The position numbers and the translations under genes were made by a program. Shown here piece by piece: positions 31,226 through 60,279 of a stretch of DNA of 64,000 nt. The notes under the pieces were generated by a model. It had not been told where the DNA came from. It made no database searches and worked only from the letters and a program-made list of their open reading frames with translations. Position 1 is the first letter of the stretch. Each line of letters opens with the position of its first letter. The stretch is from Aeromicrobium yanjiei (GTDB lineage Bacteria; Actinomycetota; Actinomycetes; Propionibacteriales; Nocardioidaceae): assembly GCF_009649075.1 (NCBI RefSeq), contig NZ_CP045737.1, positions 62,001 to 126,000 of the forward strand, read 5' to 3'.

Positions 31226-31263
31226 TGCCCCCAACCCCGCCCCCCACCCCCGGTCGCCAGGAC

Positions 31264-31281
31264 GTGAGCGAAGCGAGGCGA
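31264..31281 (+). repeat. Solitary copy of the GTGAGCGAAGCGAGGCG repeat core
   Basis: Between rfbB and the rmlC-rmlD gene lies one copy of the core found in the 57.2-58.4 kb arrays, preceded by GTCGCCAGGAC as a partial match to the array's CGCCAAGGAGG arm. It shows the repeat is dispersed in this genome. Confidence 0.75.
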
Positions 31282-31318
31282 CACCCCCACCACCCGAACG
31301 CCACCCGAACGAGGCGAC

Positions 31319-34915: not shown

Positions 34916-36364
34916 CTAGACCTGCGCCCGGGCCGCGTCCACCTGCGGCTCGCGGACAGCGTCCTCGGCCGCCTGCGACCGGGGACCCATCTCGGGGATC
35001 AGCAGCGCCACCCCCGTTGCCACGATGAGAGCGACGGCCAGCACAACGAAGCCATCGCGGTATCCCACCTCGAGCGGGAAGCCGCCGGTCCCCGTCCTGG
35101 CAGTGATCACACCGGCCATCATCGCGGTGCCGAGCGACCCGCCGACCAGACGGATGTTGGCGTTCATGCCGCTGGCGGCCCCGGTCTGCTCAGGCGGCAC
35201 TGACCGGAGCACGACCACCGCGAGGCTCGAGACGACACAGCCCGATCCGACACCCTGCAAGAACATCCAGGTGGCGACCTGCCACACCTGATCGTGGAAC
35301 AGCGCCACCGCCCCGTACGCAACCGCGTTGGAGACCAGCCCCACGAAGATGACCCGGCGCGCGGAGAACCGCCGCACCATCCGTGGTGCGACGAATCCCA
35401 TCACGAAGCCCATGAAGGAGGACGGGAGCAGGATCAGCCCGGATTCCGAGATCGATGCGCCGAAGCCGTAGCCCGACTCGGTCGGGGTCTGCAGCATCTG
35501 CGGGAGGAATCCGAGCGAGGCGAAGGTGCCCAACCCGGTCATCAGCGCCACCACATTGGCAGTCCAGACGCCGCGCGTGCGCATGAGCCGGACGTCGATG
35601 AGTGGCGTCGTGGCCCGGTGCTCCGAGCTGATCCACGCAGCGAAGATGACCACCGCACCGGCGAGCATCCCCAAGGTGGGAGCCGAGACCCAGCCGAGGT
35701 CGTTGCCCTTGCTGAGGGCGAGCAGCAGGAGAACGAGCCAAGCCGACAGCAGCACCGCGGGGATGACGCTGATGCGCCCGGACATCCGCACGGGTGACTC
35801 CGGGATGAGGAACCAGGTGCCGATCGCGGCCAACCCTGTCGAGATCGCCGGCAGCCAGAACAGCCAGGTGTAGCCCAGCACGTCGACGATCGGCCCGGCC
35901 AGAACGATGCCGATGCCGAACGCGGCGGAGACCAGCGAAGCGACGATGCCGACTGCGGTGCCCGCCCTGGCAGGCGAGATCTCGTCCCGGATGACGCCGA
36001 ACGCCAGCGGCAGCACGCCACCGCCGATGCCCTGCACCGCTCGCGCCACGATCATCCAGCCGATCGTTGGCGCGAGTGCAGCCATGACCGAGCCGATCGC
36101 CAGCATCGAGAGGGTGACGATCAGCATCCGCTGCTTGCCCACGGCGTCGCCGATGCGACCGATCAGGGGCGTGGCCACAGCAGCCGCCAGCAGGTAGGAC
36201 GTCAGGACCCACGCCGTGGTCGCTTGATCGGTCTCGTACCGCTCCTGAACCTGGGAGAGCACCGGGACGATGAGTGACTGCAGCAGTCCGAAGGAGCCGA
36301 CGCCGACGGCGAGGACCACGATGGTGCCACGCGACGAGGATGTTGCGCTTCCGAGGGGTTTCAT
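34916..36364 (-). CDS. MFS drug/metabolite exporter (DHA2-like), copy 1
   Basis: A 482-residue proton-driven exporter with 13-14 predicted helices. Family signatures are VLTSYLLAAAVATPLIGRIGD (motif A) and AVQGIGGGVLPLAFGVIRDE (a motif C-like GG stretch), plus PPEQTGAASGMNANIR near the C-terminus. It is paralogous to the genes at 36381 and 54174. The ATG at 36364 lies 16 bp after the copy 2 stop, so copies 2 and 1 form an operon. The substrate is unknown; its placement among polymer genes may be coincidental. Confidence 0.93.
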   Translation of the reverse strand: MKPLGSATSSSRGTIVVLAVGVGSFGLLQSLIVPVLSQVQERYETDQATTAWVLTSYLLAAAVATPLIGRIGDAVGKQRMLIVTLSMLAIGSVMAALAPTIGWMIVARAVQGIGGGVLPLAFGVIRDEISPARAGTAVGIVASLVSAAFGIGIVLAGPIVDVLGYTWLFWLPAISTGLAAIGTWFLIPESPVRMSGRISVIPAVLLSAWLVLLLLALSKGNDLGWVSAPTLGMLAGAVVIFAAWISSEHRATTPLIDVRLMRTRGVWTANVVALMTGLGTFASLGFLPQMLQTPTESGYGFGASISESGLILLPSSFMGFVMGFVAPRMVRRFSARRVIFVGLVSNAVAYGAVALFHDQVWQVATWMFLQGVGSGCVVSSLAVVVLRSVPPEQTGAASGMNANIRLVGGSLGTAMMAGVITARTGTGGFPLEVGYRDGFVVLAVALIVATGVALLIPEMGPRSQAAEDAVREPQVDAARAQV

Positions 36365-36380
36365 CGAGGCGTGGTCCGGC

Positions 36381-37826
36381 TCAGGCGCCCATGATCGACA
36401 GGTCGCGGTCGTTGCGTTCCTGGTCGAGCTTCTTCGCGATCTTCTTCTCTGACACCGAGGGGATGACCAGGCCGGCGATCGCGGCTGCGAGCAGCGCCCC
36501 GCCGAGCACCAGGAAACCGGCCGTGTAGCCGATCTCCTTGGGGAAGCCGCTGGGCAGGACGTGGGCCGTGACGATGCTGGCCATGACTGCCGTGCCGATC
36601 GAGCCACCGATCGTGCGGATGTTGGCGTTCATGCCGCTGGCCACGCCCGTCTGCTGCGGGGTCACCGCGGCGACGATGAGACCCGCGAGGCAGGCGAACG
36701 CCAGGCCGATGCCCGTTCCGGTGATGCCGTTGGCGAGGGCGACCTGCCACTTCTCGTCGTGGAACGCCGCGAGCTGGAACATGCCGACCGCTCCCAGCAC
36801 CGAGCCGATCACGACGACGGTCTTGGGGCCGATCCGTCGGGCGATGGGCGCCGCGACGAGACCCGTCAGGAAGGTCATGATGGCCGACGGCAGCAGGATC
36901 ATGCCGGACTCGGTGATCGACGACCCGAAGCCGTAGCCGCTCTCGCTGGGCGTCTGGTTGAACTGCGGGATGAAGCCGAACGAGGCGTACATGCCCACGC
37001 CCAGCAGCAGCGCGACGAGGTTGGTGGTCCACACCCCGGGCAGGCGCATCATCTTCATGTCGATGAGCGGCACCTCGACGACCAGCTCCACGCGGATCCA
37101 GGCCGCGAGCAGCACGACGGCCAGGACCAGAAGGCCGATGACCTTGGGCGACCCCCAGCCCCAGTCGGGCGCCTGGCTCAGGCCGAGCAGCAGGGCGATG
37201 AGCCAGCCGGACAGCAGCACCGCGGGCAGCACGGCGATGCGCCCGGGCGTACGCACGGGAGACTCGGGCACCACGAGCACGGCAACGACGGCGGCGACCG
37301 CGGTGACGATGAACGGCAGCCAGAACAGCCAGCGGAAGCCGAGGGTCGACGTGAGCGGACCGGCCAGGACGATACCGGCGCCGAAGCCGACGGCGAGCAG
37401 CGAGGACACGATGCTGACCGCTCCGCCGATCTTCTCGATCGGGAACTCGTCGCGGATGATGCCGAACGCGAGCGGCAGCACGCCGCCGCCGACGCCTTGG
37501 ATGACCCGGGCCAGGATCAACAGGCCGATGGTCGGGGCCAGCGCGGCGGCCAGCGAGCCGAGCGCAAGCGCCGCGAGTGAGACCACGAGCATGCGCTGCT
37601 TTCCGTACGCGTCTCCGAGGCGTCCCATGATGGGGGTGAAGACCGACGCTGACAGCAGATACGCCGTCAGCACCCAGGTGACCGTGTTCTGGTTGGTGTC
37701 GAACTCGGCCTCGATCTCGGACAGCACCGGGACGGTCAACGACTGCATCAGCGTGTAGGACGCGACGGAGACGGCAAGGACGGCGAACGTCACCCAGTAG
37801 TGGGTACGACGGGTGGACGTGGGCAC
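36381..37826 (-). CDS. MFS drug/metabolite exporter (DHA2-like), copy 2
   Basis: A 481-residue exporter closely related to copies 1 and 3: VLTAYLLSASVFTPIMGRLGD, VIQGVGGGVLPLAFGIIRDEFP, TESGYGFGSSITESGMILLP and TPQQTGVASGMNANIRTIGG. GTG start at 37826 with GAGG about 10 nt upstream. Its promoter region shares the motif ATTGCCTTG-N3-AACTA with copy 3 at 54 kb. It is first in a two-gene operon with copy 1. Substrate unknown. Confidence 0.93.
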   Translation of the reverse strand: MPTSTRRTHYWVTFAVLAVSVASYTLMQSLTVPVLSEIEAEFDTNQNTVTWVLTAYLLSASVFTPIMGRLGDAYGKQRMLVVSLAALALGSLAAALAPTIGLLILARVIQGVGGGVLPLAFGIIRDEFPIEKIGGAVSIVSSLLAVGFGAGIVLAGPLTSTLGFRWLFWLPFIVTAVAAVVAVLVVPESPVRTPGRIAVLPAVLLSGWLIALLLGLSQAPDWGWGSPKVIGLLVLAVVLLAAWIRVELVVEVPLIDMKMMRLPGVWTTNLVALLLGVGMYASFGFIPQFNQTPSESGYGFGSSITESGMILLPSAIMTFLTGLVAAPIARRIGPKTVVVIGSVLGAVGMFQLAAFHDEKWQVALANGITGTGIGLAFACLAGLIVAAVTPQQTGVASGMNANIRTIGGSIGTAVMASIVTAHVLPSGFPKEIGYTAGFLVLGGALLAAAIAGLVIPSVSEKKIAKKLDQERNDRDLSIMGA

Positions 37827-54006: not shown

Positions 54007-54137
54007 GGGTACGACTCTAGGTCGTGGCGCGCGGGGCCCGTCACCGGCCACGGGCGGAGACCGGCTCCGTTTGGGTGAGTCCCGTCACGAAAGTGACGAC
54101 CGGGCGCGCGCGGACCGTATGCTCTCTCGGCAAGGTG

Positions 54138-54154
54138 ATTGCCTTGTGCAACTA
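54138..54154 (+). promoter_or_regulatory. Shared upstream motif of MFS copy 3
   Basis: ATTGCCTTG-N3-AACTA, identical in spacing to the element before MFS copy 2. Here it also forms the dyads CAAGG-N6-CCTTG (54131-54146) and TTGC-N5-GCAA (54139-54151), 20 bp before the start codon, where a repressor would block transcription. Confidence 0.55.
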
Positions 54155-54173
54155 CCTTGTCGAAAGGGTCCTC

Positions 54174-55646
54174 GTGGCCAACCCGCAGAACCGCTCCCAC
54201 TACCAGCTGACCTTCGCCGTGCTCGCGGTGTCGGTCGCGAGCTTCGCGCTGCTGCAGTCGCTCGTCACGCCGGTGCTGTCCGAGATCCAGGTCGATCTCA
54301 ACACCGACCAGACGACCGTGACCTGGGTCCTGACGGCGTACCTGCTGTCGGCCTCGGTGTTCACGCCCATCATCGGGCGCATCGGCGACAAGGTGGGCAA
54401 GGAGAAGCTGCTCGTCGTGGCGCTCGTCGGCCTCGCTATCGGCTCGATCATCGCCGCGCTCGCCACGAGCATCGGGCCCATGATCGTGGCCCGCATCATC
54501 CAGGGCGTCGGCGGCGGCGTGCTGCCGCTCGCGTTCGGCATCATCCGCGACGAGTTCCCCGAGAAGAAGATCCCCGGCGCGGTGGGCATCATCGCCTCGC
54601 TCGCGGCCGTAGGCGCCGGCGTCGGCCTCGTCCTTGCCGGACCCATCGTCGAGGCGCTCAACTACCACTGGCTGTTCTGGATCCCCGGCATCGTCACGGC
54701 GGTCGCCGCGGTCGCCGCATTCTTCGTCGTCCCCGCGTCCCCCGTGCGTACGCCCGGCAAGATCAGCGTCCTGCCCGCCGTGCTGCTGTCCGCGTGGCTC
54801 GTGTGCCTGCTGCTCGCGCTGAGCCAGGGCCGCAGCTGGGGCTGGACCTCCGGCCGCGTGCTGGGCCTGATCGTCGCGGCCGTCGTCCTGGCCGTCGCGT
54901 GGGTCATGGTCGAGGAGCGCTCGGAGTCGCCGCTGATCGACATGACGATGATGCGCCTGCCGGCGGTGTGGACGACCAACCTCGTCGCGCTGCTCGTGGG
55001 CTTCGCGATGTACGCCTCGTTCGGCTTCCTGCCGCAATTCACCCAGACGCCGACCGAGGCCGGCTACGGCTTCGGCGCCTCGATCACCGAGTCCGGCCTG
55101 ATCCTGCTGCCCTCGTCCGTCACGATGTTCGTCGTCGGCCTGCTGTCTGGGACGTTCGTGCGGCTCATCGGCCCCAAGACGGTCGTCGTGATCGGCAGCC
55201 TCATCGCCGCCAGCTCGATGGCGATCCTGGCGTTCGCGCACGACGAGAAGTGGGAGCTGTACGTCGCCAACGCCATCATGGGCGTGGGTGTCGGGCTGAT
55301 CTTCGCGTGCCTGTCCAACCTCATCGTCGCGGCCGTCCCGCCGGAGCAGACCGGTGTCGCGAGTGGCATGAACGCCAACATCCGGACGATCGGCGGCTCG
55401 GTCGGCGCGGCGGTCATGGCCAGCATCGTCACCGCCTCGGTGTTCCCCAACGGGCTGCCGAAGGAGTCCGGCTACACCAACGGATTCATCATGCTGACGA
55501 TCGCGTTCGTCGTCGCGGCGCTCGTCGCGCTGCTGATCCCGCGGGTCAAGCGCGAGGTCATCGAGGAGCACCTCGTCGGTGAGCCCGAGCACCCCGAGCT
55601 CGGCATGGTGGCCGCCGGCACGCTGGTCGGCGACAAGAGCGAGTAG
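54174..55646 (+). CDS. MFS drug/metabolite exporter (DHA2-like), copy 3
   Basis: A 490-residue exporter, the closest relative of copies 1 and 2: VTWVLTAYLLSASVFTPIIG, GVGGGVLPLAFGIIRDEFPE, TEAGYGFGASITESGLILLP, PPEQTGVASGMNANIRTIGG. GTG 54174 with GAAAGGG upstream is preferred to the 50-codon longer open frame, since the shared motif lies just before it. It is on the opposite strand to the copies at 35-38 kb, so the three flank the glycosyltransferase block. Substrate unknown. Confidence 0.93.
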   Translation: MANPQNRSHYQLTFAVLAVSVASFALLQSLVTPVLSEIQVDLNTDQTTVTWVLTAYLLSASVFTPIIGRIGDKVGKEKLLVVALVGLAIGSIIAALATSIGPMIVARIIQGVGGGVLPLAFGIIRDEFPEKKIPGAVGIIASLAAVGAGVGLVLAGPIVEALNYHWLFWIPGIVTAVAAVAAFFVVPASPVRTPGKISVLPAVLLSAWLVCLLLALSQGRSWGWTSGRVLGLIVAAVVLAVAWVMVEERSESPLIDMTMMRLPAVWTTNLVALLVGFAMYASFGFLPQFTQTPTEAGYGFGASITESGLILLPSSVTMFVVGLLSGTFVRLIGPKTVVVIGSLIAASSMAILAFAHDEKWELYVANAIMGVGVGLIFACLSNLIVAAVPPEQTGVASGMNANIRTIGGSVGAAVMASIVTASVFPNGLPKESGYTNGFIMLTIAFVVAALVALLIPRVKREVIEEHLVGEPEHPELGMVAAGTLVGDKSE

Positions 55647-56157: not shown

Positions 56158-56199
56158 CCTCTGCGGAACATCGGGACCGCCGATGTGGTTGACGCCTGC

Positions 56200-57219
56200 A
56201 TGAAGAACGTCGGCTTCCTTTCCTTCGGCCACTACCAGGCGGTGCCCGGGTCCCAGACCCGTACGGCGTCGGACGTGATGCTCCAGTCGATCGACCTCGC
56301 GGTCGCGGCCGAGGAGCTCGGCCTCGACGGGGCGTACTTCCGGGTGCACCACTTCGCCCGGCAGCTCGCCTCGCCGTTCCCGCTGCTCGCGGCCGTCGGC
56401 GCCCGGACCAGCCGGATCGAGATCGGCACCGGTGTGATCGACATGCGCTACGAGAACCCGCTCTACATGGCCGAGGACGCCGCCGCGGCCGACCTCATCA
56501 GCGAGGGCAGGCTGCAGCTCGGCATCAGCCGGGGATCACCCGAGACCGCGCTGCGCGGCTACGAGGCGTTCGGCCACGTGCCGGCCGAGGGCACGTCGGA
56601 CGCCGACATGGCCCGGGCCCACGCCGAGCTGTTCAGGGCGGCGATCGCCGGCGCCGGGCTCGTCGAGTCCGATCCGCGCATGACCGGACGTTCGGTGACG
56701 CTGCCGGTCATGCCGCAGGCACCCGGCCTAGCCGACCGCATCTGGTGGGGCTCCGGCACCCGCGCAACCGCCGAGTGGACCGCCCAGCAGGGGATGAACC
56801 TGATGAGCTCGACCCTCCTGACCGAGGACACCGGCGTGCCCTTCGACCAGCTGCAGCTCGAGCAGATCGAGCTGTTCCGCTCTGCCTGGGCTGCTGCCGG
56901 CTGGGAGCGCGAGCCGCGTGTCTCGGTCAGCCGCAGCGTCATCCCGGTGCTGGACGCACAGGACCGCGCGTGGTTCGGCGAGCGTTCCGGCGAGGACCAG
57001 GTCGGTCACCTCGACGGCGGCCTCGCCCGCTTCGGCAAGTCGTACGTCGGCGAGCCCGACGTGCTGGCGGAGGAGCTGGCTGCCGACGTCGCCGTGCAGG
57101 CCGCGGACTCGTTGCTGCTGACCGTGCCCAACCAGCTCGGCGTCGACTACAACGCCCGCCTGCTCTCAGCCCTGGCCGACTACGTCCTGCCCGCCATCGG
57201 CTGGAAGCCCCGCACCTAG
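56200..57219 (+). CDS. Luciferase-like monooxygenase (LLM class)
   Basis: A 339-residue flavin-dependent TIM-barrel enzyme of the bacterial luciferase/LLM family: MKNVGFLSFGHYQ, EELGLDGAYFRVHHFARQLA, IEIGTGVIDMRYENPLYMAE and ISEGRLQLGISRGSPETALR. It would use FMN or F420 to oxidise or reduce a small molecule; the cofactor is not certain from sequence. ATG 56200 is preferred to GTG 56185, since the conserved first strand begins there. It is followed directly by the repeat array. Confidence 0.9.
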   Translation: MKNVGFLSFGHYQAVPGSQTRTASDVMLQSIDLAVAAEELGLDGAYFRVHHFARQLASPFPLLAAVGARTSRIEIGTGVIDMRYENPLYMAEDAAAADLISEGRLQLGISRGSPETALRGYEAFGHVPAEGTSDADMARAHAELFRAAIAGAGLVESDPRMTGRSVTLPVMPQAPGLADRIWWGSGTRATAEWTAQQGMNLMSSTLLTEDTGVPFDQLQLEQIELFRSAWAAAGWEREPRVSVSRSVIPVLDAQDRAWFGERSGEDQVGHLDGGLARFGKSYVGEPDVLAEELAADVAVQAADSLLLTVPNQLGVDYNARLLSALADYVLPAIGWKPRT

Positions 57220-57226
57220 CCGCCCT

Positions 57227-57845
57227 TTCGCCAAGGAGGCCGCCTGCGGCCGACTGTGAGCGAAGCGAGGCGAATTACTTGGACCGGGTCCGCCTCGCTG
57301 CGCTCACGGTCGCTTCGCTCCCTGGCGGACGGTGGGTGTTCGCCAAGGAGGCCGCTTGCGGCCGACTGTGAGCGAAGCGAGGCGAACTACTTGGGTTTCG
57401 TCCGCCTCGCTGCGCTCACGGTCGCTTCGCTCCCTGGCGGCCGTGGGTGTTCGCCAAGGAGGCCGTTTGCGGCCGACTGTGAGCGAAGCGAGGCGAACCC
57501 CTTGGGTTGCGTCCGCCTCGCTGCCGAGCGAGTCGTTCGCCAAGGAGGCCGTTTGCGGCCGACTGTGAGCGAAGCGAGGCGAATTACTTGGGTTTGGTCC
57601 GCCTCGCTGCGCTCACGGTCGCTTCGCTCCCTGGCGGACGGTGGTGTTCGCCAGGGAGGCCGTTTGCGGCCGAGTGTGAGCGAAGCGAGGCGAACTACTT
57701 GGGCCCGGTCCGCCTCGCTGCGCTCCCGGTCGCTTCGCTCCCTGGCGACGTGAGGGCGCGGAGGCGAACCGCGTGGGTTCGTCCGCCTCGCTGCGCTCAC
57801 GGTCGCTTCGCTCCCTGGCGAACGGGAGGGCGCGGAGGCGAACCG
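57227..57845. repeat. Palindromic repeat array left of the GIY-YIG gene
   Basis: Five main units begin at 57227, 57339, 57450, 57536 and 57647 (spacing 112, 111, 86, 111), plus two truncated units to 57845. Each has a 48-bp element, TTCGCCAAGGAGGCC... through GGCCGC-TT-GCGGCC to GTGAGCGAAGCGAGGCGAA, then a short spacer and a partly deleted inverted copy (CGCCTCGCTGCGCTC...). Units can fold into long hairpins. Open frames cross the array on both strands but are artefacts of the repeat. Confidence 0.92.
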
Positions 57846-57846
57846 C

Positions 57847-58140
57847 TCAGCCGCCGGACCCGCCGAAGAGCTGCGAGTCGTCCTCGACCCTCACCCCGGG
57901 CCCGTCGCTGACGAGCATGCGTTTCTTGCCGTGTGTCCAGCCCTGGATCTTCTTCTCGCGCCAGAACGCCATCGCGATCTGCTCGTGCTCCTCGTAGTAG
58001 ACGAGCTTCACGGGTAGTCGCCGTTTGGTGTATTCGGCGCCTTCACCAGAGCGGTGCTGGTTGAGACGGGTCAGCAGGTCGTACGTGCTGCCGGTGTAGT
58101 AGGTCTTGTCCGCGCAGAGCAGGAGGTACGTGTAGGGCAT
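57847..58140 (-). CDS. GIY-YIG nuclease-domain protein
   Basis: A 97-residue single-domain protein of the GIY-YIG superfamily (YhbQ/URI type): TYLLLCADKTYYTGSTYDLL carries the Y...YTG version of the motif, followed by TRLNQHRSGEGAEYTKRRLP and a Glu/Arg helix EHEQIAMAFWREKKIQGW. The motif is intact, and such proteins nick DNA in related families, but many have no proven activity. The ATG at 58140 is used; the longer frame runs into the repeat. The gene is bracketed by the same repeat in opposite orientations, so it may act on or be spread with it. Confidence 0.88.
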   Translation of the reverse strand: MPYTYLLLCADKTYYTGSTYDLLTRLNQHRSGEGAEYTKRRLPVKLVYYEEHEQIAMAFWREKKIQGWTHGKKRMLVSDGPGVRVEDDSQLFGGSGG

Positions 58141-58196
58141 GCGGCATCGTGCTGCGGCGTGGTTTGTGGGGGCAATTGGGTTTCCACAGGTGGAGG

Positions 58197-58353
58197 TTCG
58201 CCTCGCTTCGCTCACGGTCGGCCGCGGGCGGCCTCCCTGGCGAACGGTGGGGGTTGGTGGGTTCGCCTCGCTTCGCTCCCTGGCGAACGGTGGGGGTTGG
58301 GGTTCGCCTCGCTTCGCTCACGGTCGGCCGCAAGCGGCCTCCCTGGCGAACGG
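58197..58353. repeat. Palindromic repeat array right of the GIY-YIG gene
   Basis: Units at 58197-58244, 58262-58292 (shortened) and 58303-58350. The last is the reverse complement of the left-array 48-bp element with two mismatches: TTCGCCTCGCTTCGCTCAC, GGCCGC-AA-GCGGCC, CCTGGCGAA. Orientation is opposite to the left array, so the nuclease gene sits inside an inverted-repeat pair. Confidence 0.92.
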
Positions 58354-58369
58354 TGGGGTGGGGGAGAGG

Positions 58370-59572
58370 TCAGTCGGGCATGCGTCGGGTGGCGCTCAGG
58401 GACAGGAGTCCGGAGGACGCGAGCAGGCCGGCGGTCAGGTAGAAGATGACGCCGACACCCGTGGCTCCCGCGACGGCTCCGGCCCCGAGGGGGACCGCGA
58501 ACTGGGCGATCCGGTTGCCGGCCAGGCGCAGGGACAGCGCCGTGGCCCTGTTGTCCCGGTGCGACACGGTCGTCACCCACACCATCGTCAACGGTTGTCC
58601 GATGCCCCAGAAGAATCCGATGACGAGCATCGCCGCGCTCAACGCCACCACATTCGTGGTCAGAGGGATGAGCGCGACGGGTATGGCCGAGACGAGCGTC
58701 GCCGAGACGATGAGCCAGCGGCGACCGACGTGGACCAGGAGCGCAGGGAGTGCGATCCGCGACAGCACCGACGCCAGGGCGCGCATCGTCAGCAGGAAGG
58801 TGACCATGCCGACGCTCAGGCCCAGGTGCTCGCCGAGCACCGGGACGTAGGCGGTCAGGAGATCCAGACCGGACAGCACCGTCATCGACGAGTACATCGC
58901 CGGCTTCATGCCCGGCTGACGAAGGATGGTCAGGCTCGACTGCTGGGTCCCGACCTGCTCCCGGCGAGACCGTACCGCGCGAGACGCGGGTGAGAACGCG
59001 TAGGCGAGCGGGACGGCGGCCGTGGCGACCGCCGCCATCACGATCAGCGAGAACGTCGTCTTCAGCGTGCCGTCACCGCCTGCGCCGCTGTTCGACAGCG
59101 TTGCCACGATGCCCGCCAGCGGGAAGCCGAGGAACTGTCCCGCGGAGACGCCGAGGGTCAGCTGGCCGAAGCGCTTGTCCATCAGCTCTGGGGGTGACCA
59201 GAGCGGGATCAGGCTCTGGCACGCGATCGTGTGAAGGATCTGGCCGAAACCGAGCAATGCGCTCGCCCCCGCCAGGACGCCGAGGTTGGTGCTCGTGGCA
59301 GCGAGGACGACTGCGCCCACCGTCAGGACGAGTCCGCCCCGGAGGACCCGCATGCCGTGACCGCGATCGACGGCGCGACCGATGGGCAGCGCGACGAGGA
59401 GCGGCAGCACCGCGAACGAGGCCGTGACGATGCCCACGGACAACGCGTCCCCGCCCAGCGCGAGTGCCCGGTAGGAGATGAGCGTGCGCACGCCGTTCAG
59501 AACCGCGTGGGACGCGATCGAGATCAGGACCAGGGAGGTGAACCAGGAAGGGCGGCGGAGCGGTGACCTCAC
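58370..59572 (-). CDS. MFS transporter
   Basis: A 400-residue transporter with twelve predicted helices and a central loop (about residue 195-215, RSRREQVGTQQSS). Motif A-like LPIGRAVDRGHGMRVLRGG follows helix 2. GTG 59572 overlaps the GntR gene's stop (GTGA), so the two are translationally coupled. Co-regulation by that GntR protein with the divergent PrpD/acyl-CoA dehydrogenase operon suggests it imports the catabolised substrate; this is inference. Confidence 0.88.
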   Translation of the reverse strand: MRSPLRRPSWFTSLVLISIASHAVLNGVRTLISYRALALGGDALSVGIVTASFAVLPLLVALPIGRAVDRGHGMRVLRGGLVLTVGAVVLAATSTNLGVLAGASALLGFGQILHTIACQSLIPLWSPPELMDKRFGQLTLGVSAGQFLGFPLAGIVATLSNSGAGGDGTLKTTFSLIVMAAVATAAVPLAYAFSPASRAVRSRREQVGTQQSSLTILRQPGMKPAMYSSMTVLSGLDLLTAYVPVLGEHLGLSVGMVTFLLTMRALASVLSRIALPALLVHVGRRWLIVSATLVSAIPVALIPLTTNVVALSAAMLVIGFFWGIGQPLTMVWVTTVSHRDNRATALSLRLAGNRIAQFAVPLGAGAVAGATGVGVIFYLTAGLLASSGLLSLSATRRMPD

Positions 59573-60279
59573 GGGGCCTGGGGTGATCCGTCGCCGGCAG
59601 CGTCGCTGACGGGACCCGCCGGGCGGAGCGCGGCATGCGTGGCACGCAGGTCGCACGCGTGCATGATGTGCTCGTGCATCGCGCGGCTCGCCCGCTCGGC
59701 GTCACCGTCCTCGATCGCGCTCAGGATCGCCTCGTGGTCGTGACGCAGCTCGGTGGTGAAACCGCTGACGCTCCACAACGTGACGGACGGCGTGAACCGG
59801 CTCCACAACATCTCGATGCACTCGATCATGACCGGCGACGTCGCCTGGTAGATCGCGAAGTGGAGCGCCTTGTTGAGTCGTGAGAGCTCGGCGGAGGAGG
59901 CAGCGGAATCGGTGGCCGCCAAGAGCTCCTCGTTGGCGACGCGGATTCCGGCCAGCACCTCGGGCGTCATCCGTTCCATCGCGACGGTGACTGCGAGCGA
60001 CTCCATCTCGGCCCGCATGCGGTAGAGGTCGGTGGCCATCTGGGGCGTGTAGTCGCGCACCGTGGCGCCGCGGTGGGTGTGGTAATCGATCATGCCGTCG
60101 GCCTCGAGGACGCGCAGCGCCTCGCGAACGGGTGTGGCGCTCACGCCGTAGCGGCGGGCGAGCTCGACCTGGCGCAGCTGGTCGCCGGGATTGATGAGCC
60201 CGTTCCTCAGGTCGGCGCGAAGGCGTTCCAGGACGTACGCGGTGCGGCTACCTGGGATCGCGACGTCGTCGCTGGCCAT
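59569..60279 (-). CDS. GntR-family regulator with FCD domain
   Basis: A 236-residue regulator. The N-terminal winged helix reads RTAYVLERLRADLRNGLINP, GDQLRQVELARRYGVSATPV and REALRVLEADGMI; the all-helical FCD ligand domain follows (about 75-215), with His/Asp metal-ligand candidates such as HDHEAIL and HEHIMHACD. The effector is probably a carboxylic acid. GGAG precedes the ATG. It is divergent from the PrpD-like operon and coupled to the MFS gene. Confidence 0.93.
   Translation of the reverse strand: MASDDVAIPGSRTAYVLERLRADLRNGLINPGDQLRQVELARRYGVSATPVREALRVLEADGMIDYHTHRGATVRDYTPQMATDLYRMRAEMESLAVTVAMERMTPEVLAGIRVANEELLAATDSAASSAELSRLNKALHFAIYQATSPVMIECIEMLWSRFTPSVTLWSVSGFTTELRHDHEAILSAIEDGDAERASRAMHEHIMHACDLRATHAALRPAGPVSDAAGDGSPQAP

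Follow-up and report, generated by a model that had tools for sequence, protein, structure and literature searches.

Small GIY-YIG nuclease genes flanked by cognate palindromic repeats: a possible counterpart of RAYT/REP systems

In a 64-kb stretch of the genome of a soil bacterium, an Aeromicrobium (hereafter the window; G000:C2:62001–126000 of a 3.68-Mb genome), a gene for a small stand-alone GIY-YIG nuclease lies between arrays of a palindromic repeat. A preliminary description of this DNA had been reminded of RAYT transposases and their REP elements. The arrangement raises the question of whether gene and repeats belong together and, if so, what the nuclease does to the elements around it.

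The nuclease gene and its arrays

Nuclease gene and arrays fill the intergenic gap between a luciferase-like gene (56185–57219) on the left and an MFS gene (58370–59656) on the right (Table 1). The protein belongs to the GIY-YIG superfamily by its match to PF01541 (E 1.4e-14, 54.6 bits against a curated cut-off of 22.6). Pfam found the GIY-YIG domain alone with no further domain, NCBIfam gave no match, and neither did the PADLOC anti-phage defence models up to E 1. A second in-frame start, GTG at 58215, would extend the ORF into the right array. Six residues (Y5, Y15, G17, R25, H29, and E62) are invariant in an alignment of 21 relatives, and we take Y5, Y15, R25, and E62 to be the catalytic Tyr/Arg/Glu of GIY-YIG nucleases, by the roles assigned in I-TevI and UvrC. 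An AlphaFold2 model (pLDDT 85.6) matched the UPF0213 structure 1zg2 best in Foldseek, with Slx1 entries next at E 0.002 and above; by sequence and fold together, the nearest solved relatives are UPF0213 (1zg2, 1ywl) and Slx1 (7cq2/7cq3). The gene is under purifying selection, with pairwise dN/dS values of 0.10–0.33 (ten pairs from five genes of the window's clade). Just two other GIY-YIG matches occur in the same genome, to ORFs 650 and 607 aa long: the former has the size of Pfam-confirmed UvrC proteins in relatives, and the latter is presumably a DnaQ-type fusion.

Table 1 Nuclease gene and repeat elements, in positions of the window
Feature	Position	Strand	Remark
Stand-alone GIY-YIG nuclease gene, 97 aa	57847..58140	minus	PF01541; ATG start chosen by conservation
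Left array, five long (minus) and five short (plus) elements	57226..57823		
Long element 1	57226..57275	minus	
Short element 1	57288..57330	plus	without GGCCGC tip
Long element 2	57338..57387	minus	inverted repeat of right array
Short element 2	57400..57442	plus	without GGCCGC tip
Long element 3	57449..57498	minus	
Long element 4	57535..57584	minus	
Short element 3	57597..57639	plus	without GGCCGC tip
Long element 5	57646..57695	minus	found as inverted repeat of right array, not by fuzzy pattern
Short element 4	57708..57750	plus	without GGCCGC tip
Short element 5	57781..57823	plus	without GGCCGC tip
Right array, long element	58196..58245	plus	
Right array, element without central hairpin	58261..58288	plus	
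Right array, long element	58302..58351	plus	inverted repeat of left array
Solitary remnant element	31263..31294	minus	compared with relative G002

The window element is a 50-bp imperfect palindrome. Much of what the preliminary description had said of the arrays held up, including the two mismatches between the inverted arms (long element 2 against the last right-array element, 50 nt each, 96% complementary). Five main units are indeed present on the left, although the period of about 111 bp given for them is interrupted (start-to-start spacings of 112, 111, 86, and 111). Likewise, two of the three right-hand units are full elements, and the third lacks the central hairpin. The left array had also been taken for one repeat in a single orientation, which does not stand: long minus-strand and short plus-strand elements alternate there, mostly one to one. 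The lone core copy noted at 31264–31281 is real and belongs to an element whose central hairpin is deleted; at the matching site, the relative G002 carries two full elements and one partial one. A fuzzy search of all 64 kb returned 14 matches, 11 of them inside 57200–58370 (the copy at 57646 was missed); the three outside look like chance, and 20 base shuffles of the window gave one match in total. Judged by eye, the repeats look extragenic at the window locus and at three other clusters of the same genome. In a separate observation, window 29.3–32.7 kb is inverted relative to G002 and joined to 52.6 kb, with a rearrangement breakpoint there (29309, 52648).

A repeat common throughout the genome and not enriched beside GIY-YIG genes had been named as one outcome that would make the association one of chance. 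A BLAST search of the 3.68-Mb genome with a right-array query gave 18 matches at E ≤ 0.001, and nine of these fall within 1.2 kb at the nuclease locus, so that the repeat is unevenly distributed. The matches elsewhere lie at C2 93.3, 139.5, 2246, and 3266 kb, and none adjoins a GIY-YIG match. One of these sites (L016, G000:C2:2246.4–2246.7 kb), far from the nuclease, holds five tandem copies, with a 62-bp period, of a variant element whose enlarged hairpin sits in the other arm. Across 49 Aeromicrobium genomes, the window-type repeat occurs in ten, namely in nine of the 24 that have a stand-alone gene and in one of the 25 that lack it, counts that ignore the relatedness of the genomes; the sole gene-less carrier, G008, has a single weak match.

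Flanking repeats in relatives and controls

To compare loci, we aligned the 800 bp on the left of each gene with the 800 bp on its right (blastn, E ≤ 1e-4). Stand-alone genes are present in 24 of the 49 Aeromicrobium genomes, and 26 of 30 loci had matching flanks; the four negatives comprise two loci truncated by the end of a contig (L054, L058) and two genuine ones (L056, L063). The same test was negative at all 14 uvrC loci of the genus, four of them confirmed as UvrC by Pfam; eight more UvrC-type or fusion loci were unusable, the gene running off the locus or not being found. By sequence, a mixed set of 29 relatives, all taken from a single genome scan, divides into a QGW/KKW type (n = 22) and a YhbQ-like type (n = 7). 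Matching flanks were found at 20/22 loci of the former and 0/7 of the latter (0/6 testable, as L045 has no right flank). Removing L018–L020, which are already among the Aeromicrobium loci, leaves 17 positives among 19 further QGW/KKW loci, mostly from Microbacteriaceae and Flavobacteriaceae (16/18 without L023, the same locus as L154). In other Nocardioidaceae, every one of 18 loci was flanked; these are the best-scoring loci of 141 gene-bearing genomes among 244 sampled.

A phylum sample (296 genomes, 28 loci tested) gave 3/3 positives for the QGW type (L126–L128) and 3/17 for the YhbQ type (at 34, 35, and 57 bits), and locus L151 was negative. It also contained a third stand-alone GIY-YIG type with the motif YYVYI..TLYTGVTNNLERR (L136, L137, L143, L145, L148, L149, and L150), positive at 4/7 loci and possibly another nuclease–repeat system. 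Because sham flank positions at the same kind of loci produced 6/30 weak positives, all below 47 bits, 50 bits is the safer threshold. At or above it, by hand count from the listed scores, 24/30 Aeromicrobium loci, 19/22 QGW/KKW loci of the mixed set, and 0/30 sham positions were positive; the tested loci share ancestry, so none of these counts are independent. Slid along the window, the flank test was positive at 15 of 156 positions: two at the nuclease locus, five in repeated genes at 34.8–38 kb, and eight elsewhere at 32–44 bits. The repeated genes form two tandem stretches (34995–37802) that resemble the MFS gene at 54024–55646 through a shared G002 match, at 68–75% identity.

The other outcome that the preliminary description had named as pointing to chance, relatives lacking the repeat, is likewise contradicted: GIY-YIG relatives of the QGW/KKW branch do carry flanking palindromes, and control genes are without them. 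The association is almost certainly general for this branch. A general repeat background of GC-rich genomes is ruled out by the uvrC, YhbQ, and sham controls, together with the paralogue comparison below. Two side observations concern the assemblies. The contig of L025 bears the label Stenotrophomonas maltophilia, and its nuclease groups within Microbacterium in the tree, pointing to mislabelled DNA or transfer. Contigs end at the nuclease locus in L054, L058, and G516:C1, as expected if arrays break short-read assembly, and gene absence in draft genomes is therefore uncertain.

The elements track the nuclease gene more closely than the genome. In six Aeromicrobium genomes with two such genes, left–right scores within a locus were 25–308 bits and those between loci 20–37. 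Both loci clearly exceed the between-locus scores in G011, G023, and G045 and barely so in G041; in G042 and G047 only one locus does, which counts against gene and elements forming a cognate system. Paralogue flanks in one genome thus share nothing above noise, and it is on this that the assignment to the gene is based. In 5/6 of these genomes the paralogues come from different clades. A protein tree of only 94 columns places 68 flanked-type rows on one side of a branch (support 98/93) with nine YhbQ-type rows outside, and groups the window's clade, marked by the C-terminus GPGVRVEDD, in 11 rows (98/99). Over the whole tree, element-class labels change 15 times against a shuffled mean of 23.4, with none of 500 shuffles as low; element class follows nuclease clade. 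Some genomes hold two to five family members. In G354 (C1:1392009–1392735), two members with equal scores start 445 bp apart, likely a tandem duplication.

Element design, folding and turnover

Beyond the window's clade, many loci have an element with the sequence TGGTCGAGTAG-hairpin-CGTATCGAGACCA or a close variant of it. We searched for its core as N5-GAG-(3–45)-TCGA-N5′, that is, a 5-base stem with its exact complement around GAG and TCGA, both of which the search demands. The core was present in 18/19 canonical Aeromicrobium loci (91 copies versus 0.6 expected from local shuffles), in 9/9 Microbacteriaceae-like loci (43 versus 0.2, likewise from local shuffles; two of the nine sit on contigs bearing another or no genus name), in 13/21 other Nocardioidaceae and class-level loci (39 versus 0.6), and in 7/9 Bacteroidota loci (28 versus 0). 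It was found in 2/24 YhbQ-type loci, in none of the seven third-type loci, and in 6/14 uvrC loci, there with one copy each, above shuffles, which we take as coding chance. Within the tree, 39 of 48 rows of the branch sister to the window's clade have the core. The window's clade has it at 1 of 11 loci; its readable elements instead enclose two inverted repeats within an outer stem.

Core stems vary by group (TGGTC, TGATC, TGGTT, ACTTC, ACACT, and others). From the sequence, GAG opposite TCGA may be read as a tandem G.A/A.G mispair plus one extra T. Tandem G.A/A.G mispairs are stable in DNA. In the 3.9-Mb Lacinutrix genome, a short element occurs in seven copies at up to one mismatch, four of them exact, and three of these four are no more than ~0.75 kb away from the gene; this exact element is absent from the two other Flavobacteriaceae genomes searched, where elements have other stems. 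As a separate observation, T-type elements (e.g., L048) carry at the hairpin foot GTAG, the tetranucleotide that RAYTs use in REPs, be it by chance, shared repeat ancestry, or a shared folding rule.

As element sequences diverge, their base pairing is preserved. In T-type inner hairpins (up to 128 distinct), the first seven pairs are Watson–Crick in 63–81% of cases; with the 3′ letters shuffled among elements, the means drop to 29–43% (highest 54%), an excess that cannot be read as a probability as the hairpin sequences are related. Mispairs comprise 21 G.T, 15 A.C, 91 G.A, and 7 C.T, the excess of G.A over C.T being explained in part by purine-rich composition.

One strand also folds better than its complement under DNA parameters. 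This is the GAG strand in 125/141 T-type elements (worse in 13), in 25/28 Microbacteriaceae-like ones (worse in 3), and in 26/26 from Bacteroidota. Among window-type elements the corresponding strand folds better in 78/85 (worse in 6), in a set from which 27 of 112 matches had been dropped beforehand for poor outer stems. Hairpin tips (n = 128) read C-GNA-G in 51 cases and C-TNC-G in one. The fixed GAG/TCGA builds in part of the folding bias, but not the loop bias. Strand-biased folding and loop bias together suggest selection for one folded DNA strand. For the window element in its left-array version, the minimum-energy fold of the favoured strand has two hairpins on an outer stem. The favoured strand of the right-array version prefers another fold, and minimum-energy folds of the opposite strand lack the two-hairpin junction; both observations speak against this fold. 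No Rfam family approached its gathering score; MIR439 matched twice, at 28–30 bits where 90 is needed, which was dismissed as chance.

Repeat abundance goes with gene presence. Among 244 Nocardioidaceae genomes, the exact T-type pattern occurs in 54 of the 141 with the gene and 16 of the 103 without (1701 versus 146 copies), and at least 20 copies are present in 25/141 versus 2/103, one of the two later found with a cut gene; like the window-type counts, these statistics ignore relatedness. The reversed pattern occurred in none of the 244. Six gene-less genomes have at least nine T-type copies. One, G516, has a gene fragment cut by the contig start; in the other five (G003, G430, G453, G495, and G513; 9–43 copies) no gene was found, which weighs against dependence on the nuclease. 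So does G253, a genome of another family with 27 copies and no gene found, one of 3/296 phylum-sample genomes with the pattern (the other two have the gene). Gene loss or assembly gaps could explain such copies. Of the gene-bearing Nocardioidaceae, 87/141 are without the exact T-type pattern, and the loci inspected among them have other palindromes.

How arrays change was visible between the sister species G040 and G007, whose aligned blocks are mostly 91–95% identical over 240 kb. Six of eight G040 clusters have a counterpart at the equivalent position in G007, but sizes differ (2 and 10, 2 and 8, 4 and 7). The comparison revealed no clear case of one element inserted where the other genome has an empty site; at the sole resolved presence/absence site, G040 has a five-element array in place of a gene of G007, and a further lone element sits in a stretch of unclear alignment. 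The luciferase/GH92/PEP-carboxylase surroundings of the nuclease are retained in G000, G002, and G021 (families confirmed for one copy each), except that GH92 is missing from the G002 locus. Blocks of 15 and 19 kb, mutually non-matching, lie at the arrays of G000 and G002. In G000, GH92 stands between a full PEP carboxylase gene and a duplicated 5′ fragment of it (L014 2694–2820; G000:C2:139694–139820), which adjoins a gene-less repeat cluster. We had considered gene movement between arrays of G000 and G002 and rejected it, as the three-way comparison fits insertions and GH92 loss around a fixed gene. Since cluster sizes differ at fixed sites and blocks differ at arrays, array growth looks mainly local, and the arrays are breakpoints.

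Possible explanations and comparison with known systems

We lean, by a little, towards a system analogous to RAYT/REP but built on a GIY-YIG enzyme: the nuclease would recognise its cognate element once this has folded as single-stranded DNA, and would drive the local amplification of such elements. An element would fold when its strand is exposed, during lagging-strand replication or in an extruded cruciform. In most of the family the fold would comprise an outer stem, the G.A internal loop formed by GAG/TCGA, and a hairpin whose sequence is free to vary; for the window's clade, it would be a three-way junction, with two hairpins on an outer stem. The small Slx1/YhbQ-like nuclease may recognise this fold through the conserved linkers and nick it, and repair of the nick by copying neighbouring elements would enlarge the array locally and occasionally seed new sites. 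The nuclease gene itself would be mostly stationary and kept by selection, either as a selfish repeat driver or because the arrays serve the host. Against this reading, slippage or recombination alone could produce array growth.

The strongest alternative, though in our view an unlikely one, reverses the roles: the nuclease would police the repeats, resolving palindrome hairpins or cruciforms as SbcCD or Slx1 do, and be selected where arrays exist, while slippage or recombination amplifies them. That its nearest solved relatives, UPF0213 and Slx1, are structure-selective nucleases fits this, as do the purifying selection on the gene and the changes in array length at fixed sites, which need no transposition. 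Policing leaves unexplained, however, why the gene is embedded among elements cognate to it and why two paralogues of one genome are surrounded by different ones.

We consider a homing-like cassette quite improbable. Here the nuclease would cut gene-less sites, gene and flanking elements would move together, and solo elements would be leftovers, an idea that draws on the GIY-YIG fold of homing endonucleases (I-TevI, a weak Foldseek match at E 1.6), on the two to five family members of some genomes, and on the two close copies in G354. The constant surroundings of the locus in G000, G002, and G021, the solo clusters without a GIY-YIG match in the window's own genome, and the different clades of paralogues in 5/6 two-gene genomes all speak against it. 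The elements might also act as RNA, as transcribed structures that are bound by the protein or that terminate or stabilise the nuclease message. Although one strand folds better and stems covary, both orientations occur in one array, elements also lie at sites without a nuclease, G.T is barely above A.C among mispairs (21 versus 15), and no Rfam family comes near its gathering score, which makes this very improbable. Hardly credible, lastly, is a hot-spot accident in which repeat-rich junctions collect genes and the nuclease is one passenger: unrelated 15–20 kb blocks do lie at the arrays of G000 and G002, yet element types are clade-specific and flanks match at 24/30 Aeromicrobium loci versus 0/14 uvrC, 0/6 testable YhbQ-type, and 0/30 sham (Aeromicrobium and sham at 50 bits or more).

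A wider proposal, for and against which we see equal grounds, is a second, independently evolved class of REP-spreading enzyme. Small GIY-YIG nucleases would read strand-specific folded DNA, through the GAG/TCGA G.A loop in Actinomycetota and Bacteroidota or through the two-hairpin junction in the window's clade, and so generate palindromic families in genomes without RAYT. A widespread nuclease family (141/244 sampled Nocardioidaceae genomes) would then have its substrate written beside the gene, and cognate pairs could therefore be read directly from sequence, so that nature would supply a collection of nucleases whose recognition of folded DNA is readable. Enzyme-driven REP systems would also have had more than one origin, with unrelated chemistry. 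In addition, arrays mark sites where 15–20 kb gene blocks differ between related species.

Several known systems invite comparison. The closest solved relatives, YhbQ/UPF0213 and Slx1, share the small size and the catalytic core. YhbQ-type loci, however, mostly lack flanking repeats (0/6 testable in the mixed set; 3/17 positive in the phylum sample) and fall outside the flanked-type branch of the tree, and Slx1 has a second domain, whereas Pfam shows the GIY-YIG domain alone in the window protein. I-TevI-type homing endonucleases have the same catalytic fold (1ln0, the weak Foldseek match above), and their gene, too, lies inside what may be its own target. Unlike them, the window gene is intergenic rather than in an intron or intein and encodes no further domain, and its targets would be many short palindromes instead of one site.

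Some bacterial palindromic families have no known propagating enzyme. CGTC-tagged REPs, as portrayed in the available sections of PMC3733652, are such families, seemingly without a dedicated transposase; they resemble the present elements in being palindromic repeat families without RAYT and differ in that those sections name no cognate enzyme. The main text of PMC12306157 contains none of the terms RAYT, nuclease, transposase, and GIY. Among the open-access titles and abstract openings listed, no report joined GIY-YIG genes to REP-like repeats, and PMC9465073, PMC10928387, and PMC12455944, in their accessible portions, mention both terms but draw no link between them.

RAYTs themselves are ruled out as the driver within Aeromicrobium: Y1_Tnp (PF01797) was found in 0/49 genomes of the genus, and E. 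coli and four other control genomes were positive. The analogy drawn in the preliminary description nevertheless survives in flanking position, cognate specificity, copies that follow gene presence, and mosaic arrays, and fails in the enzyme family. RAYT/REP systems, to which REPtrons, BIMEs, and REPINs belong, are described in passages of PMC2817692 with flanking inverted repeats, co-evolution, abundance that follows the gene, mosaic arrays, and complementary changes. In both systems the gene is flanked by cognate palindromes, often inverted, and mosaic arrays mix the two orientations; each enzyme goes with its own element type; copies track the presence of the gene and can cluster close to it; and complementary changes keep palindromicity. 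Strand-specific single-strand recognition by RAYTs has its parallel here in strand-biased folding, and T-type elements and REPs both have GTAG at the hairpin foot (both points as far as the available text of PMC2817692 and PMC8266576 goes). The enzyme there is the Y1 HUH transposase TnpA_REP, here an unrelated GIY-YIG nuclease, and what the present elements share is an internal loop, GAG/TCGA, set within a longer stem or, in the window's clade, two hairpins. By this analogy, the GIY-YIG system appears to work like RAYT/REP, yet it is not a member of RAYT/REP.
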